Below, in pieces: positions 6,036-10,553 of a stretch of DNA of 64,000 nt; position 1 is the stretch's first letter; each line of letters opens with the position of its first letter. The DNA is from Prochlorococcus marinus str. AS9601 (lineage in GTDB: Bacteria > Cyanobacteriota > Cyanobacteriia > PCC-6307 > Cyanobiaceae), in contig NC_008816.1 of assembly GCF_000015645.1 (NCBI RefSeq), forward strand, positions 1,116,001-1,180,000. Reading direction: 5' to 3'. The position numbers and the translations under genes were made by a program. The notes beneath the pieces are model-generated. The model was given only the letters and a program-made list of their open reading frames with translations. It was not told the origin of the DNA and ran no database searches.

Positions 6036-6054
6036 TGCTCATAATTATTCTAAA

Positions 6055-6657
6055 TTAGATTAAAAATAAACAACATCCTGAAATAAATCCACTTAAGTGC
6101 CCAAGTAAACTTACCCCCGGCAAAAAAGAGAAAATCAGACCTATCAGGCATATTGTTTTTAACATTTTTTGAACTTCATAATTAGACTTAAAACCAATTT
6201 CTTTACCTAAAAAATATTTCTTTCCATAAATAGAAGTTAACAATAAGAATCCCAAAAAAGCATAAATTATTCCACTAAATCCTATTGAGGCATAATTCGG
6301 AAAGATATTAAAGTACGATAGAGTCATCTCGTAAAACCAGATAATAAAAAAATTTAAAAAAGAACAAATTAAAATAAATTTCAAATAAAAAAATCTACTT
6401 TTAATTCTGAGTCTCATCAAAAAATATCTAGTGATGATAATTCCACTAAGATTAGTTAATAAATGATTTAAATCTGCATGAGTTAGAGTTGATGTGAAAA
6501 TCCTATAGGGTTGAACACTAATTAATCTTGGTACAAAGTAAAAATATTCCTTATCAATAACTCCAATTAAATCTGTAAAAATAAAAACTGAGATTAACAA
6601 AAATCCAGTTACAATAAACTGCCAATCATATTTTGATATTGAATTATTAAAAGGCAT
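6055..6657 (-). CDS. rhomboid-family intramembrane serine protease
   Basis: About six hydrophobic segments fill this 200-residue protein. The rhomboid catalytic serine is in GFSG (Ser128) and the catalytic histidine in GHLSG (His187), with the upstream oxyanion motif NHLLTN at about residue 64. It would cleave membrane-spanning proteins within the bilayer. It is alone on the minus strand between the glycan cluster and small genes, with no clear partner. Family membership is well supported; the substrate is unknown. Confidence 0.8.
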   Translation of the reverse strand: MPFNNSISKYDWQFIVTGFLLISVFIFTDLIGVIDKEYFYFVPRLISVQPYRIFTSTLTHADLNHLLTNLSGIIITRYFLMRLRIKSRFFYLKFILICSFLNFFIIWFYEMTLSYFNIFPNYASIGFSGIIYAFLGFLLLTSIYGKKYFLGKEIGFKSNYEVQKMLKTICLIGLIFSFLPGVSLLGHLSGFISGCCLFLI

Positions 6658-6745
6658 TTTTAAGTTTTAAATTTAAAAATATCTTCTTAAATATAAGAAA
6701 AAACCCTGACAAGGATCTTAATTAATATCTTAATTTATATTGCCT

Positions 6746-6904
6746 TTAGTAAACTTTGCAATGAGAACTTGTTGGGTGGTCTATGCATTCTTTTTCCCAA
6801 TATTCATGTCTAAGATCTTTGGGTAATTGATAATTAAAATCATGCATTCTCCAAATATCTGAAATTGAATTTCTAAGGGCAGCGAATGTAATGGTGAGTC
6901 TCAT
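6746..6904 (-). CDS. small conserved-looking protein, 52 aa
   Basis: An ATG at 6904 is preceded at ideal spacing by AAGGAGG, an almost perfect ribosome binding site that is rare in this AT-rich genome. The frame runs 52 codons, starting MRLTITFAALRNSISDIW and ending with ECIDHPTSSHCKVY. It is rich in charged and aromatic residues (HDFNYQLPKDLRHEYW) and has no membrane segment. I do not know a function. The strong ribosome site and balanced composition argue that it is translated. Confidence 0.72.
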   Translation of the reverse strand: MRLTITFAALRNSISDIWRMHDFNYQLPKDLRHEYWEKECIDHPTSSHCKVY

Positions 6905-6961
6905 AAAGCCTCCTTTATCTCTATTACTTAATTATCCTCCTATTCAATTAAAATTAATAGA

Positions 6962-6971
6962 GTATTAATAC
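6962..6971. promoter_or_regulatory. 10-bp perfect palindrome, candidate operator
   Basis: GTATTAATAC reads the same on both strands, and the half-site GTATT recurs 5 bases later at 6976. It lies 58 bases upstream of the minus-strand small ORF and upstream of a short plus-strand unit that ends in a terminator. It could be a shared operator for divergent transcripts, although AT-rich palindromes arise by chance. Confidence 0.25.
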
Positions 6972-6984
6972 CCGAGTATTAGTG

Positions 6985-7120
6985 CTTTGTCATTGTCACG
7001 ACTATCTTTTCTCATTAAACAGAAATAGGAATAATGCAGAATTCAAAACACTTCATCGACTTTGTGGACAGCGAGGTATAAAAGACTCGAAGAGGCCATA
7101 AATGCCCTCTTATTTTTTTT
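6985..7120 (+). ncRNA. candidate small RNA or leader with terminator
   Basis: About 135 bases of non-repetitive DNA end in a good intrinsic terminator (7091-7120). They contain only a 15-codon ORF (ATG at 7034, MQNSKHFIDFVDSEV). A short untranslated RNA, or a mini-gene, is the simplest reading. No known Yfr-family motif was recognised and no promoter is obvious, so the 5' end is a guess. Confidence 0.3.
7091..7120 (+). terminator. intrinsic terminator
   Basis: AGAGGCCAT pairs with ATGCCCTCT (8 of 9 positions, one C-C mismatch) around a very short loop and is followed by TATTTTTTTT. No listed gene ends just upstream, so it implies a short transcript of its own. Confidence 0.65.
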
Positions 7121-7238
7121 AATTTTATTAGTAATTTTTGTTAAAGAATTAAACTTATAAGGTAAAAATACTATTTCTTATTCAAAGAATAATGATTAAA
7201 ATCTTTTTTGATGAGTTCAAAAAGTATGCAGGGTAAGT

Positions 7239-7409
7239 ATGAGAACTAAATGGGATGACAAATCTTGGAAGAAAGATTTCTTAAACATGAAGTCTCTATC
7301 TCCTTCAGATGCAAAACTCTTAATGGGAGGCGTAAAAGGATTAAAAGATTCATGGCGGTTAGGTGTTTTACATGTTGAATGCAAAAGACTGAAGAAAATA
7401 CAGGAGTAA
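7239..7409 (+). CDS. small hypothetical protein, 56 aa
   Basis: The ATG at 7239 opens a 56-codon frame, MRTKWDDKSWKKDFLNMK at the start and CKRLKKIQE at the end. It has four tryptophan/aromatic anchors, a mixed basic-acidic composition and no membrane segment. A weak purine-rich GCAGGGTAAGT stretch precedes the start. Codon use looks like that of neighbouring genes. Function is unknown; small proteins of this kind are common in the variable regions of Prochlorococcus. Confidence 0.55.
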   Translation: MRTKWDDKSWKKDFLNMKSLSPSDAKLLMGGVKGLKDSWRLGVLHVECKRLKKIQE

Positions 7410-7459
7410 TAGCAAGAGCAATGTCAGGATAAATAAACTGGCAGAAAAAATTATAATAA

Positions 7460-7672
7460 AGTGGAAAATTTAATGATAATTTTTCAAAAATTTTCTAGAA
7501 CGTGGAGCTAAAAACTTTTGCAAGGAATCTATCTTGGATTTATGTATTCCAGATGAAGAAAAAAAGGTGTTATATAAAGATGATCCATTAAAAAATACAG
7601 TCAAATGAAATCGTCATTCAAAGTGATTTAGAAGATAATCAGGAAGAAATAAGAATTAAATCTTTTCTTTAA
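7460..7672 (+). pseudogene. possible decayed small gene with frameshifts
   Basis: Three consecutive frames read like one broken protein. A start MIIFQKF at 7472 shifts into FLERGAKNFCKESILDLCIPDEEK and later, after a second shift near 7600, into NEIVIQSDLEDNQEE before a stop at about 7672. No single frame has both a start codon and the full length. Protein-like composition suggests recent decay, but this could be chance. Confidence 0.28.
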
Positions 7673-7732
7673 AAATGGTTAGCTTTTCAGAGCGGCTCAT
7701 TGATAAAGCTTGTTATGAAAGTGATAATTTAA

Positions 7733-8890
7733 TTATTCGAATTCTATTTTTGTACGCGCTTTACGATGTAGCGATGTAAATATAGGCTTAGAAGCATCTA
7801 GAAGTATTAGATACTTAGACTTGCCTGTTCTCATTACAGGCGCAATATGATGGTAAAGATCAATTTTCATGCCAATCCTTCTGAATTCATCTTTCAAAAG
7901 ATCTTTTTTGACAAGCTTCTGCTTATATTTAGGATCAAAGCCTGTTATTTCATACAGATCTACAGATTCTCCGTATTTACGGTAGTTATTCATTGTAAAT
8001 CTGAAAAAGCGATTGCTATCTTCTTCTTTGTATATTAACCCAGCATTTCTTTCTCCTGTTTGATTCCCTAGATCGTAAAATTTACAGTTACTTTCATCCC
8101 ATTTCCCCTCATTAGAACTTATGAACTTATCTATACTCTTACCAAGCTTACATACCCTTAGAGATTTACTATTGTTGGACATAAGATAATCCACACCCTC
8201 ATAATTAGTGATTGCTGGATCATAGTGTCCAAGGCTATTTCCTACTAAATTTTGTAATTTTTTTACTTGTATTCTTCCATCCTTAGTGGGTTCTACCTCT
8301 GCAAATTTAATTGTATCTTGTGTGGCTGACTCGAATACAAACCCTATTCTATTTCCGAAACTATAAGGATAAGGAAAACTTACTTTGTAATCAGGATCAA
8401 AGATAATATCGCTTTTAATATTTTCGTTAACATTCATCGCTTGCTCAAGTGGAAAGTATTGAATATTGCATTGATAATCTGGTCTTTTCTTAGTTGATTT
8501 GGCCTTGAAGTAGCAGGGTTCATAGACAACATAAGAGCGTTCACTTTGTTGAGGTTTTTTTACTCTAAGAATGAACGGATCATATAATCTCAACTCAGAC
8601 TCTGGGTGTGCATCTCTTGGGTTAATGTTCAGACTTCTTATCGATAAAATCCTTGGCCTTTTGCTGAAGAGGTCCTCAACCTCAGCAAGGTAAATTTTCC
8701 AGTTATCGCCGATTAAAATATTTGAAGTGCTCTCTGGATAGATAAAGCTTTTAGCTGCCCTTCGCAATACCCTCTCTATTTTGGTGATTGGTTTTATGAC
8801 TAAAGGTAGGCTTGCAATAGCTATAAAAATAAGGGCAGCTATATAAATTGTTTTTCTTGTCTTAATTATGCCTATTATTAGTTTCAACAT
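7733..8890 (-). CDS. membrane-anchored beta-propeller protein, GH43/GINT1-N-like
   Basis: One N-terminal transmembrane helix (about residues 13-33, TIYIAALIFIAIASLPLVI) is followed by roughly 350 residues that look like a five-bladed propeller. Signs are the RLYDPFILRV blade with YVVYEPCYF, VSFPYPYSF with IGFVFES, and GHYDPAITNYEGVDYLMS. The alternation of these strands resembles glycoside hydrolase 43/32-type propellers and the N-terminal domain of glucosamine inositolphosphorylceramide transferases. It probably faces the periplasm and binds or trims sugar. It stands alone, next to the tRNA-Ser repeat array, and may be cargo of an old integration. Function is inferred only from fold-like motifs. 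Confidence 0.55.
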   Translation of the reverse strand: MLKLIIGIIKTRKTIYIAALIFIAIASLPLVIKPITKIERVLRRAAKSFIYPESTSNILIGDNWKIYLAEVEDLFSKRPRILSIRSLNINPRDAHPESELRLYDPFILRVKKPQQSERSYVVYEPCYFKAKSTKKRPDYQCNIQYFPLEQAMNVNENIKSDIIFDPDYKVSFPYPYSFGNRIGFVFESATQDTIKFAEVEPTKDGRIQVKKLQNLVGNSLGHYDPAITNYEGVDYLMSNNSKSLRVCKLGKSIDKFISSNEGKWDESNCKFYDLGNQTGERNAGLIYKEEDSNRFFRFTMNNYRKYGESVDLYEITGFDPKYKQKLVKKDLLKDEFRRIGMKIDLYHHIAPVMRTGKSKYLILLDASKPIFTSLHRKARTKIEFE

Positions 8891-8951
8891 AATGTTTTTT
8901 GATTAATATTTTAACCTAGCACTGGTTCTCGTCTTGGTGATTTGATTGGCC

Positions 8952-9000
8952 AGAGTCCAAATAGTTAAGAAAAATTCTAATTGGATCTATTTCGGACTCT
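8952..9000. repeat. long imperfect inverted repeat, no U-tract
   Basis: AGAGTCCAAATAG (8952-8964) is the reverse complement of CTATTTCGGACTCT (8987-9000) with a single unpaired C. The 22-base loop contains a further AGAA/TTCT pairing. No T-run follows on either strand, so it is not a normal terminator. The stretch 8891-9120 holds no other recognisable gene. Confidence 0.6.
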
Positions 9001-9120
9001 AGATCGCCCTAAGATTAATATGATCATCACAACCTAAACCCTCTAAAAACCGAGTCAGTAAAATGGTATTGACCATATTGAGCCCTAACTAACTATCTAA
9101 AAACAAAGAGGGTTAATTAC

Positions 9121-9204
9121 GAGTTCAACATCAGAGAACACTGTAGAACATACCTAAACAGATTTTTTATATCGTAAATCAAATTCCTCCCAACAAACCC
9201 GCCA
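9121..9204. repeat. repeat A, copy 1
   Basis: The first 30 bases, starting GAGTTCAACATCAGAGAACA, match 9357-9386 at 29 of 30 positions, and similarity then fades through the CCCGCCAA-type tail at 9187-9205. Both copies read in frame as EFNIREH.RT.LNR.FIS, which suggests they once coded for protein. A GAGGGT precedes each copy. Confidence 0.75.
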
Positions 9205-9232
9205 ATAGCGCATTGTTCTTAATGCTGAATTT

Positions 9233-9351
9233 AAGAATTAGATTTTAATTTAAATAGAGGCGAAATTAATTTATAGCTATAAACTCATGAAAATTTTAAT
9301 AAATTTATCATCCGTGAAATGGGACGATTTAAAATCGTACGGAGAGGGTGG
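9233..9351. repeat. repeat B, copy 1 (attachment-like)
   Basis: This stretch is similar along about 120 bases to 10301-10419, the DNA spanning the 3' end of tRNA-Ser. Exact blocks include CCGTGAAATGGGA and the final 19 bases AATCGTACGGAGAGGGTGG, of which the last 12 are tRNA sequence. It is therefore a duplicated tRNA 3' end and flank, as left by an element that integrates there. Confidence 0.8.
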
Positions 9352-9356
9352 AATAA

Positions 9357-9456
9357 GAGTTCAACATCAGAGAACACTATAGAACAAACCTGAACAGGGT
9401 TTTCATATCGAAAAAGAATTTCCCGCCAACAAACCCGCCAACAAACCCGCCAACAA
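9357..9456. repeat. repeat A, copy 2
   Basis: It starts 5 bases after repeat B copy 1 and matches copy 1 (9121) at 29 of its first 30 positions. It then runs into three copies of a 12-bp repeat. The spacing shows a unit of the form A then B, with A2 starting the second, longer unit that carries the cargo gene. Confidence 0.75.
9422..9456. repeat. 12-bp tandem repeat CCCGCCAACAAA x3
   Basis: CCCGCCAACAAA occurs three times head to tail. Related CCCGCCAAC words appear at 9187-9205 (diverged) and at 10232, 10254 and 10266 just before repeat B copy 2. In one frame they read PPTNPPTNPPT. Regular spacing near an attachment-like site suggests recombinase arm-type binding sites or the tail of a lost coding region. 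Confidence 0.7.
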
Positions 9457-9542
9457 TAATTTCAATTTAAAAATACAAAAATATAAGGTTTTACTTTAAT
9501 CAATTAGTTATTTATAATCAATTTCATTGAAATTAAAGTATT

Positions 9543-10187
9543 ATGAGCCTAAAAAAAAATATTGCAATTGCTTCTTTATTATTAACTGCAATAGGAATTT
9601 TTAATAATCAGTCAAGCGCTAATACTTTAAAAAATTTTGATGAAAAAGGGGTGGAAAAACTATATGCTTTTTTAAATAATTCTTATTCTTGGAAAGATAG
9701 CAATGGCAACAAATTCGTCATTAAAAAAGAAGACTGTGAATGCGTTATTTCAAAAACTTCAACAGAGAGAACAGGAATTGATTTAAGTCCTGGGAAAAAA
9801 CAAAGAACAACAGCTAGAAATAGATATAGGGCATATTGTTACTTGAAAGGTACTAAATTTACAACAACTGGTTTTAAATATGTTTTCAATAAAGGAACTT
9901 CTTGTGACGAAGACAATCATTTATGCCGTGCCGTTAATAAGTTTGGGTTAATTAAAAAGTATCAAATAGAAGCAGATAGATTAAATTCAGAAGAGAATGA
10001 TAGGCAAAGAGCATTTAGGAATGAAACAAAACAAGTTGATGACTTATATCGCGAACTTAAAATTAGGAAGAAATTATGTAATAACGCTTCTGGCGATAGC
10101 GCTACATTAAACAACAACGAATGTATTTATTATCAAATTTTGAGAAGAGATATGTCTAATAAAGGATACTCACTACCCCCTTATTAA
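9543..10187 (+). CDS. exported hypothetical protein, Cys-rich
   Basis: A clear signal peptide (basic KK, then ASLLLTAIGIF, cleavage after QSSA at about residue 26) precedes 188 mature residues with seven cysteines, including the close pair DCECV. A basic central part and a charged helical stretch at about 145-180 follow. No family was recognised. It is the only gene between two copies of the tRNA-Ser attachment-like repeat, so it is probably cargo of that element. Possible disulfides and export point to a periplasmic or surface role. Confidence 0.6.
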   Translation: MSLKKNIAIASLLLTAIGIFNNQSSANTLKNFDEKGVEKLYAFLNNSYSWKDSNGNKFVIKKEDCECVISKTSTERTGIDLSPGKKQRTTARNRYRAYCYLKGTKFTTTGFKYVFNKGTSCDEDNHLCRAVNKFGLIKKYQIEADRLNSEENDRQRAFRNETKQVDDLYRELKIRKKLCNNASGDSATLNNNECIYYQILRRDMSNKGYSLPPY

Positions 10188-10231
10188 AATTCATATCGTC
10201 TATTATGAAGAGTGTTTATCCATATCATAAT

Positions 10232-10275
10232 CCCGCCAACAGCTTTTTAAATTCCCGCCAACATACCCGCCAACA
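10232..10275. repeat. CCCGCCAAC word cluster before repeat B copy 2
   Basis: Three CCCGCCAAC words occur with uneven spacing, preceded by CATATCATAA, which resembles the CATATCGAAA of repeat A copy 2. It appears to be a decayed A-type tail belonging to the second unit. Confidence 0.55.
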
Positions 10276-10300
10276 GGAAGTCGTCTTTTAGGCTAGAAAT

Positions 10301-10419
10301 AAGAACTAGATTTAATTTTGGATAGAGGTGAAATTTACTTAAAGCTATTAAATCAGAGAAATTTTAGAAAATTTATAGTCCGTGAAATGGGAAGATTTGA
10401 AATCGTACGGAGAGGGTGG
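10301..10419. repeat. repeat B, copy 2 (tRNA-Ser 3' end and flank)
   Basis: This is the resident attachment-like site. It runs from AAGAACTAGA through CCGTGAAATGGGA into the last 12 bases of the tRNA-Ser gene and matches 9233-9351 over most of its length. Confidence 0.8.
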
Positions 10420-10492
10420 GATTCGAACCCACGAATAGTCACCTATTAAACGATTTCGAGTCGTTCGCTTTCGACCACTCAGCCACCTCTCC
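10408..10492 (-). tRNA. tRNA-Ser (CGA)
   Basis: Read on the minus strand, an acceptor stem GGAGAGG pairs with CCTCTCC, followed by discriminator G with no encoded CCA. The D-arm GGCTGAGTGGTCGAAAGC, the long variable arm expected of class II tRNAs and the T-loop GGTTCGAATCC are all present. The anticodon loop CTCGAAA gives anticodon CGA, reading UCG serine codons. Its 3' end is duplicated at 9340-9351. Confidence 0.95.
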
Positions 10493-10553
10493 GTCTATTT
10501 ATAAGTATGCACAAAATTAAGTGAAATTATAACCTATATAATTATCTTAATTT

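Follow-up and report, generated by a model that had tools for sequence, protein, structure and literature searches.

At the tRNA-Ser(CGA) gene of Prochlorococcus marinus AS9601, direct repeats surround a single small gene and no integrase-like ORF is present. Do these repeats mark the remains of elements that have lost their integrase, or do they bound small elements which are moved by an enzyme encoded elsewhere? The window, i.e. the whole stretch of 64,000 nucleotides analysed here (G000:C1:1116001-1180000), is a part of the 1.67-Mb genome of this strain (G000). A sequence-only reading had interpreted the repeats as scars of two successive insertions at the tRNA, the second of them carrying one exported-protein gene and no integrase being left, and had regarded the result as a minimal satellite or a decayed element of the tycheposon type.

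Repeats, cores and elements at the tRNA-Ser(CGA) locus

The integration target is the tRNA-Ser(CGA) gene (10407–10493, minus strand; found with ARAGORN and Rfam RF00005), the 3′ end of which faces left. It accounted for all proper-strand matches in the Rfam scan. Two direct repeats were confirmed to be real and not due to chance: repeat A of 99 nt (9107–9205 and 9343–9441, 84% identity) and repeat B of 174 nt (9181–9354 and 10249–10422, 78% identity). Their order, A-B-A-cargo-B-tRNA, is as first read, and bounding cores at 9104, 9340 and 10408 can now be added, which gives core 1-A-B-core 2-A-gene-B-core 3/tRNA from left to right. Each A lies directly to the right of a core and each B directly to the left of one; since A abuts a core just as B does, three cores are recognized. 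Core 3 (CGGAGAGGGTGG; 10408–10419, plus strand) lies inside the tRNA 3′ end, core 2 (9340–9351, plus strand) is an exact copy of CGGAGAGGGTGG, and core 1 (9104–9115, plus strand; CAAAGAGGGTTA) is degenerate, with three mismatches in the first 11 bases, and has an A end in register at +86/+98. The tRNA 3′ end is duplicated at the far boundary (cores at 9340 and 10408). The positions of A and B relative to the cores indicate that the three cores bound two head-to-tail units, E1 and E2. The 19-bp repeat previously proposed as the attachment core does exist as a match, but the core common to the element families comprises only about 11–12 bp (CGGAGAGGGTG followed by one variable base, G, T or A). 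The rest of the match is the B end of the window's family, because other families differ in sequence there. The motif CYNCCAACA occurs 11 times in the window compared with 1.7 expected, and seven of these copies lie inside E1 or E2.

Element E2 (9340–10407, plus strand, 1068 bp) consists of an A end, one gene and a B end, and belongs to the A2/B2 family, which was also found at loci L039, L044, L050 and L059. Its A end contains GAACA motifs with 10-bp spacing (at 9372, 9382 and 9392; 9372–9398, plus strand), which are putative sites of an Xis/AlpA-like directionality factor, and three 12-bp-spaced CCGCCAACA repeats (9423–9455, plus strand; CCAAC at +86, +98 and +110 from the core), which are candidate integrase arm-type sites. 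Further CCGCCAACA repeats are found towards the B end (at 10233, 10255 and 10267; 10233–10275, plus strand). The B end itself (10249–10407, plus strand), as delimited by repeat comparison, also forms the present 3′ trailer of the tRNA. The single gene (9543–10187, plus strand) encodes a cysteine-containing protein of 214 aa with an apparent signal peptide, as judged by eye. The protein had no match in Pfam, PHROG, PADLOC or NCBIfam, and a search of 265 further genomes of the genus yielded no homologue of the gene. Because the gene of E2 is absent from these genomes, the evidence of recent mobility described below comes from other elements.

Element E1 (9104–9339, plus strand, 236 bp) is gene-free, with the A end joined directly to the B end (9181–9339, plus strand, from repeat comparison), and resembles elements of 206–295 bp in relatives. 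Its 10-bp-spaced A-end motifs (at 9136, 9146 and 9156; 9136–9162, plus strand) are in register with those of E2. A and B overlap in this element: it has a lone arm-site pair (CTCCCAACA and a decayed CCGCCAATA; 9187–9207, plus strand), so that A and B share two CCAAC copies, which lie at +86/+98 of A and at −162/−150 of B. Since its outer core is degenerate, E1 itself is probably immobile by now.

Older layers and empty sites

Two older insertion layers were distinguished to the left of E1. The first (7656–9103) contains a gene for a 385-aa protein (7733–8890, minus strand; weak PF24793 match), its own core is not recognizable, and it is absent from genome G252. The second (7121–7655) contains a broken copy of a 60-aa gene (7239–7409) which is a common cargo of tRNA-linked elements. 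This gene resembles phrog_16908 and phrog_869, is often found beside a 76-aa gene and recurs in tRNA-linked elements across the genus. In G252 (locus L187), the site is empty: the homologue of window positions 6042–7655 ends 29 bp from the tRNA, and nothing of 7656–10406 is present. At loci L135 and L242, there are no repeats and cobQ lies 280 bp from the tRNA, and in another group of genomes the tRNA follows directly after the homologue of window position 7120. These empty or shorter arrangements in relatives suggest that the island is composed of layers, i.e. the DNA up to 7120, 7121–7655, 7656–9103, E1, E2 and the tRNA. The arrangement is thus not fixed among the relatives, in which an empty site exists and both the occupancy of the tRNA and the end family vary from genome to genome. 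All this is in agreement with two successive site-specific insertions, the youngest next to the tRNA, as the sequence-only reading had proposed; its statement that no integrase is left at the window locus also held.

Related elements in 142 genomes

The tRNA-Ser(CGA) loci of 142 genomes (the window and 141 relatives, many of them partial single-cell genomes) were compared; 21 of the 142 were selected for matching the A/B ends of the window and 120 by their flank alone. The A and B ends occur at the same tRNA in other Prochlorococcus genomes with other cargo. Altogether, 81 elements of 97 bp to 7.3 kb, belonging to several end families, were delimited between successive cores, and at least one was present at 47 of the 120 flank-chosen loci and at 12 of the 22 loci made up of the window and the end-matched ones. 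By length, 18 elements were below 300 bp, 14 were of 300–1000 bp, 35 of 1–3 kb and 14 above 3 kb; the 18 shortest contained no ORF of at least 60 aa. An integrase was encoded in a single element and absent from the remaining 80. Left and right end families were paired non-randomly (statistic 428, compared with a maximum of 168 in 10,000 shuffles). In an earlier, smaller set of loci, 463 kb of DNA left of the tRNA in relatives contained 44 core copies with at most one mismatch on the plus strand and none on the minus strand, where shuffling gave an expectation of 0.6.

Two loci deserve separate mention. One 7.6-kb contig (L054, G107:C31) contains two copies of tRNA-Ser(CGA) together with the flanking gene, 2.8 kb apart, which may be a real tandem duplication or, as the genome comes from a single cell, an error of assembly. 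At a tRNA-Asn gene of G042 (L443), two more distal copies of the tRNA-Asn 3′ end delimit units of 623 and 1498 bp, so small units can also be stacked beside tRNA genes other than tRNA-Ser.

Geometry of the element ends

In 44 non-redundant A ends, a direct periodicity of 10 bp was found at +12 to +66 (z 13.7) and one of 12 bp at +60 to +125 (z 11.7), and no other shift was nearly as strong. The 12-bp motif, CYNCCAACA, is shared by many otherwise unlike families. CCAAC was located at +86 in 35 and at +98 in 33 of the 81 elements, and E1 and E2 fit both offsets. The spacing was also found in a scan for a core, a gap and a double arm in one genome per species across GTDB: the gap between core and arm pair was 75 in 45 of 46 picocyanobacterial matches and 74 in the remaining one; in 23 matching loci of other taxa the gaps ranged from 66 to 82, with no peak and none of 75. 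In 41 whole genomes, the double arm motif gave 30 matches, nearly all at the tRNA-Ser(CGA) locus, and the reversed pattern used as a control gave none. Two double-arm matches which were checked elsewhere (in G008 and G017) adjoin tRNA-Ser(TGA), the 3′ end of which is similar. The one in G008 belongs to an element without cargo (L249, region of G008:C1:625289), which is about 249 bp long and keeps the +86 offset, and the one in G017 is a CCAAC arm pair (L252).

Tyrosine integrases use arm-type sites and directionality-factor sites. By analogy with these, the 12-bp repeats may well be arm-type sites and the 10-bp repeats directionality-factor sites.

Mobility of elements lacking an integrase

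An element of 1919 bp without an integrase is 99.6–99.8% identical at loci L178, L183 and L191, whereas the cobQ genes of the hosts are only 80.5–85.3% identical and the right flank, measurable in one pair, 85.3%. On either side of the element, L178 and L183 are only about 85% identical, compared with 99.7% within it, and to the left of the distal core their sequences are unrelated. Similarly, the 257-bp element of L058 and L218, which has no ORF of 60 aa, is 97.8% identical compared with 88.3% for cobQ, and the element of L040 and L174 is 97.9% identical compared with 81.9% for the right flank. Judged by these identities, integrase-less copies are mobile and have spread recently between divergent hosts.

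It could be argued that E1 and E2 descend from autonomous tRNA-Ser elements, lost their integrase after arrival and can no longer move, a plain decay of the kind known for cis-mobilizable elements (CIMEs). The degenerate outer core and mutated arm site of E1, the broken 60-aa gene nearby and the existence of integrase-bearing relatives at the same tRNA all fit such a history. Nevertheless, elements without an integrase, and even without any ORF, which are 97–99.8% identical in hosts with only 80–88% identical neighbouring DNA are not what decay would leave behind, the exact spacing of the ends is kept while the cargo differs, and the lack of an integrase in 80 of 81 elements is too uniform for independent losses. 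We therefore consider the remnant explanation unlikely. Near-identical copies in distant hosts imply that a missing integrase does not mean a dead element, and the description of the locus as decayed is not sustained.

Another explanation would be that ordinary homologous recombination between islands reshuffles the locus, the short repeats being mere anchors. The repeats at both ends could indeed serve as homology, some cargo (the rhomboid, 182-aa and 60-aa genes) recurs widely, and at L039 and L044 the cobQ genes (93%) are more alike than the elements (86%). The abrupt fall in identity on both sides of the L178/L183 element argues against it, as do the ends of the elements, which are sharply set at the 11-bp core, a length too short for efficient homologous exchange. 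This makes recombination of that kind a highly improbable cause of the pattern. We thus return to elements moved by a site-specific enzyme and to the source of that enzyme.

Candidate integrases

All ORFs left of the tRNA in the loci were compared with 30 recombinases of the genus. A recombinase-like ORF was found in one locus only: the 5016-bp element at tRNA-Ser(CGA) of G202 (L216) encodes a 409-aa integrase (PF13356, PF22022 and PF00589), an AlpA factor (PF05930) and a serine resolvase. Its arms have the sequence ACATGTG and lie at +73/+85, and several units of 339–589 bp elsewhere share this class of motif and these offsets; a second integrase element at tRNA-Ser(CGA), in G104, has arms at +73/+85 too. 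Of 266 genomes, 22 contained homologues, located for instance at tRNA-Ser(GCT) and tRNA-Asn, and most of those with a delimitable A end show a clear 12-bp-spaced pair there. One of them, L424 (G147), combines a core of the tRNA-Ser(TGA) type, CCAAC at +86/+98, an AlpA factor, a 426-aa integrase and a resolvase. Because of its CCAAC sites at +86/+98, its integrase is the strongest candidate for a helper of the CCAAC families, that of the window among them, although its core corresponds to tRNA-Ser(TGA) and not to tRNA-Ser(CGA). An integrase element at the same tRNA exists (L216), but no genome was found to hold an integrase together with the A2/B2 ends of the window's family. Autonomous elements of about 5–8 kb with a phage-type integrase, often an AlpA factor and a serine resolvase were observed at tRNA-Ser(GCT), tRNA-Ser(CGA) and tRNA-Asn (L424, with its core of the tRNA-Ser(TGA) type, L426–L430, L432, L434, L438, L442 and L443).

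The genome of the window, G000, has neither an L216-type nor an L424-type integrase. It does encode a 389-aa tyrosine recombinase (G000:C1:505148-505567; PF00589, weakly XerA-like), of which nearly all genomes of the genus have a single copy. A second protein of G000, of about 359 aa, has a stronger PF00589 match (G000:C1:379736-380209) and is encoded far from tRNA-Ser; PF00589 matches of the same frame length were seen in G006 and G246. In the near-complete, element-bearing genomes G026, G027, G029 and G021, the 389-aa protein is the sole PF00589 match, so either this protein acts on the elements or a resident helper is usually missing. In the first case, the elements would make use of a host recombinase, in the way that IMEX use host Xer, and the protein does keep motifs resembling the catalytic H-x-x-R, GH and Y. 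Against this, one enzyme would not need arm motifs that differ between element families, the protein gave no match to the arm-binding domain, its gene is not near tRNA-Ser, and L424, which has the CCAAC geometry, encodes a dedicated integrase. Overall, the resident recombinase appears to be a very unlikely candidate.

Proposed mechanism

It is probable that E1 and E2 represent two successive insertions of non-autonomous integrative elements at the 3′ end of tRNA-Ser(CGA), with the integrase provided in trans. The anatomy of the elements, the fixed geometry and pairing of their ends, the empty site, the missing integrase and the recent spread of integrase-less copies between divergent hosts were established by comparing the sequences of the loci; we infer in addition the action of an integrase in trans from a rarer autonomous relative. 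Each element would constitute an attP-like module. The A end, read from the core outward, would comprise the 10-bp-spaced sites bound by a directionality factor and then the 12-bp-spaced CCAAC arm pair; the B end would carry another set of arm sites and give the tRNA a new 3′ trailer, and any cargo would be located between the two sets. A circular form is predicted to recombine with the tRNA core by means of a tyrosine integrase acting in trans, for which the 426-aa integrase of L424 or the 409-aa integrase of L216 are the candidates. Every such insertion would keep the tRNA intact and push older insertions away. As helper candidates and exact sites can be named, trans mobilization by a rare parent is directly testable.

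Cargo of the elements

In loaded units, the cargo lies between the arm pair of the A end and that of the B end, and in short units (E1 and those of the A0/B0 and A1/B4 families) one arm pair does both duties. In the A0/B0 family, each of the seven short units is more similar to a loaded unit than to any other short unit, which indicates that empty and loaded forms interconverted repeatedly. Loss of cargo by recombination between the flanking repeats seems to be the simplest reading, and gain may also occur. Accordingly read, E1 would be E2-like DNA which lost its cargo through recombination between arm-site repeats.

The cargo includes a type III restriction-modification pair, carried in G042 (L148) by a 7269-bp integrase-less unit at tRNA-Ser(CGA), HNH and GIY-YIG nucleases, an MrcB_N/NOV_C protein, HSDR_N, 2OG-Fe(II) oxygenases, an arylsulfotransferase, TPR and MORN proteins, a DnaB-like helicase and many small exported proteins. 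Two small proteins are encoded repeatedly close to B ends; both match PHROG families to which no function has been assigned. Similar proteins were found in different end families and also in integrase-bearing elements at tRNA-Asn. Although its genomes are very small, Prochlorococcus has a large pool of flexible genes; mini-elements which stack at one tRNA and carry single genes, such as those of restriction systems, nucleases, oxygenases and secreted proteins, are a concrete vehicle for this pool. With the +86/+98 signature as a search pattern, elements of this kind can be found even in genomes that are not assembled or annotated.

Comparison with known systems

An integrase of its own, characteristic of tyrosine-integrase integrative elements, is missing at the window locus. 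The closest known kinds include CIMEs, MITEs and CALINs, and additive flexible islands. CIMEs are described as decayed ICEs or IMEs moved in cis with a newly accreted ICE (PMC5704250). E1 and E2 are likewise flanked by att sites, lack genes for integration and transfer, and are stacked head-to-tail by tandem accretion at a tRNA 3′ end (PMC5704250). Unlike CIMEs, the elements described here are of 0.2–2 kb, many of them are gene-free, they fall into many families and they occur in new hosts on their own. In the part of the L216 and L424 ORFs that was scanned, no gene for conjugation or a relaxase was recognized.

A phage origin of the ends was not supported by phage and viral collections: A and B ends had no match beyond tRNA genes in 50,697 phage records, and exact A or arm patterns had none in IMG/VR. 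Among the looser IMG/VR hits, a core-plus-arms match (L279) was discarded as GC-rich coding sequence and AT-rich triple-arm matches as proline-rich or repetitive coding DNA. The phage-type integrase and AlpA factor of L216 and L424, and the PF13356 arm-binding domain in L216, are reminiscent of P4-type elements; however, no capsid-related or P4 replication genes were recognized in these two, E1 and E2 carry neither integrase nor AlpA, and no packaging or phage-hijacking genes are present in E1 or E2.

The assignment to tycheposons was not supported either. The authors who originally described tycheposons reportedly listed seven tRNA genes as their integration sites. The common features are the genus, integration at a tRNA, the presence of cargo and, in larger members, the lineage of the tyrosine recombinase, as far as the excerpts of the two sources go (PMC10872708, PMC11389934). 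Nevertheless, neither E1, which is gene-free, nor E2, with one non-recombinase gene, carries a recombinase or another hallmark gene, and their lengths of 236 and 1068 bp are below the range of 4–200 kb quoted for tycheposons in an excerpt of one source (PMC10872708). The integrase elements of 5–8 kb could be small tycheposons or a separate group.

Additive islands built of tRNA-repeat cassettes have been described in marine Actinomarinales, Methylophilaceae and Alteromonas (PMC7771536, PMC10872708, PMC4119200, in excerpt). They resemble the present locus in having tRNA-inserted cassettes split by repeats of the tRNA 3′ end and a highly variable content, but the descriptions in these excerpts do not include conserved ends, arm geometry, cargo-free units or a helper integrase. 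Integrase-less stacking (CIMEs), dependence in trans (MITEs and CALINs) and additive islands with tRNA repeats are thus already known. For tyrosine-integrase elements directed to a tRNA, the literature searched contained no description of a conserved grammar of the ends, of mobile ORF-free units below 300 bp or of a helper matching them.

MITEs (about 300 nt) and CALINs have been termed hitchers that depend on an enzyme from elsewhere (PMC11389934). The forms of about 206–295 bp without an ORF of at least 60 aa are similar to the former and the gene cassettes without an integrase to the latter. In contrast to both, the ends resemble a directional tyrosine-integrase attP, with core and putative arm sites, and have one tRNA as the target. 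Terminal inverted repeats as in MITEs are absent, A being different from B and the end repeats being direct, and the A/B ends form two-sided attP-like modules instead of the single, folded attC sites of integrons and CALINs. As a tentative suggestion, which we hold to be possible more than probable, cargo-free attP modules of about 215–260 bp which are moved in trans and repeatedly gain and lose cargo at the seam of the 12-bp-spaced arm pair might be a tyrosine-integrase counterpart of MITEs, i.e. a gene-capture cassette system which builds the tRNA-Ser island of Prochlorococcus.
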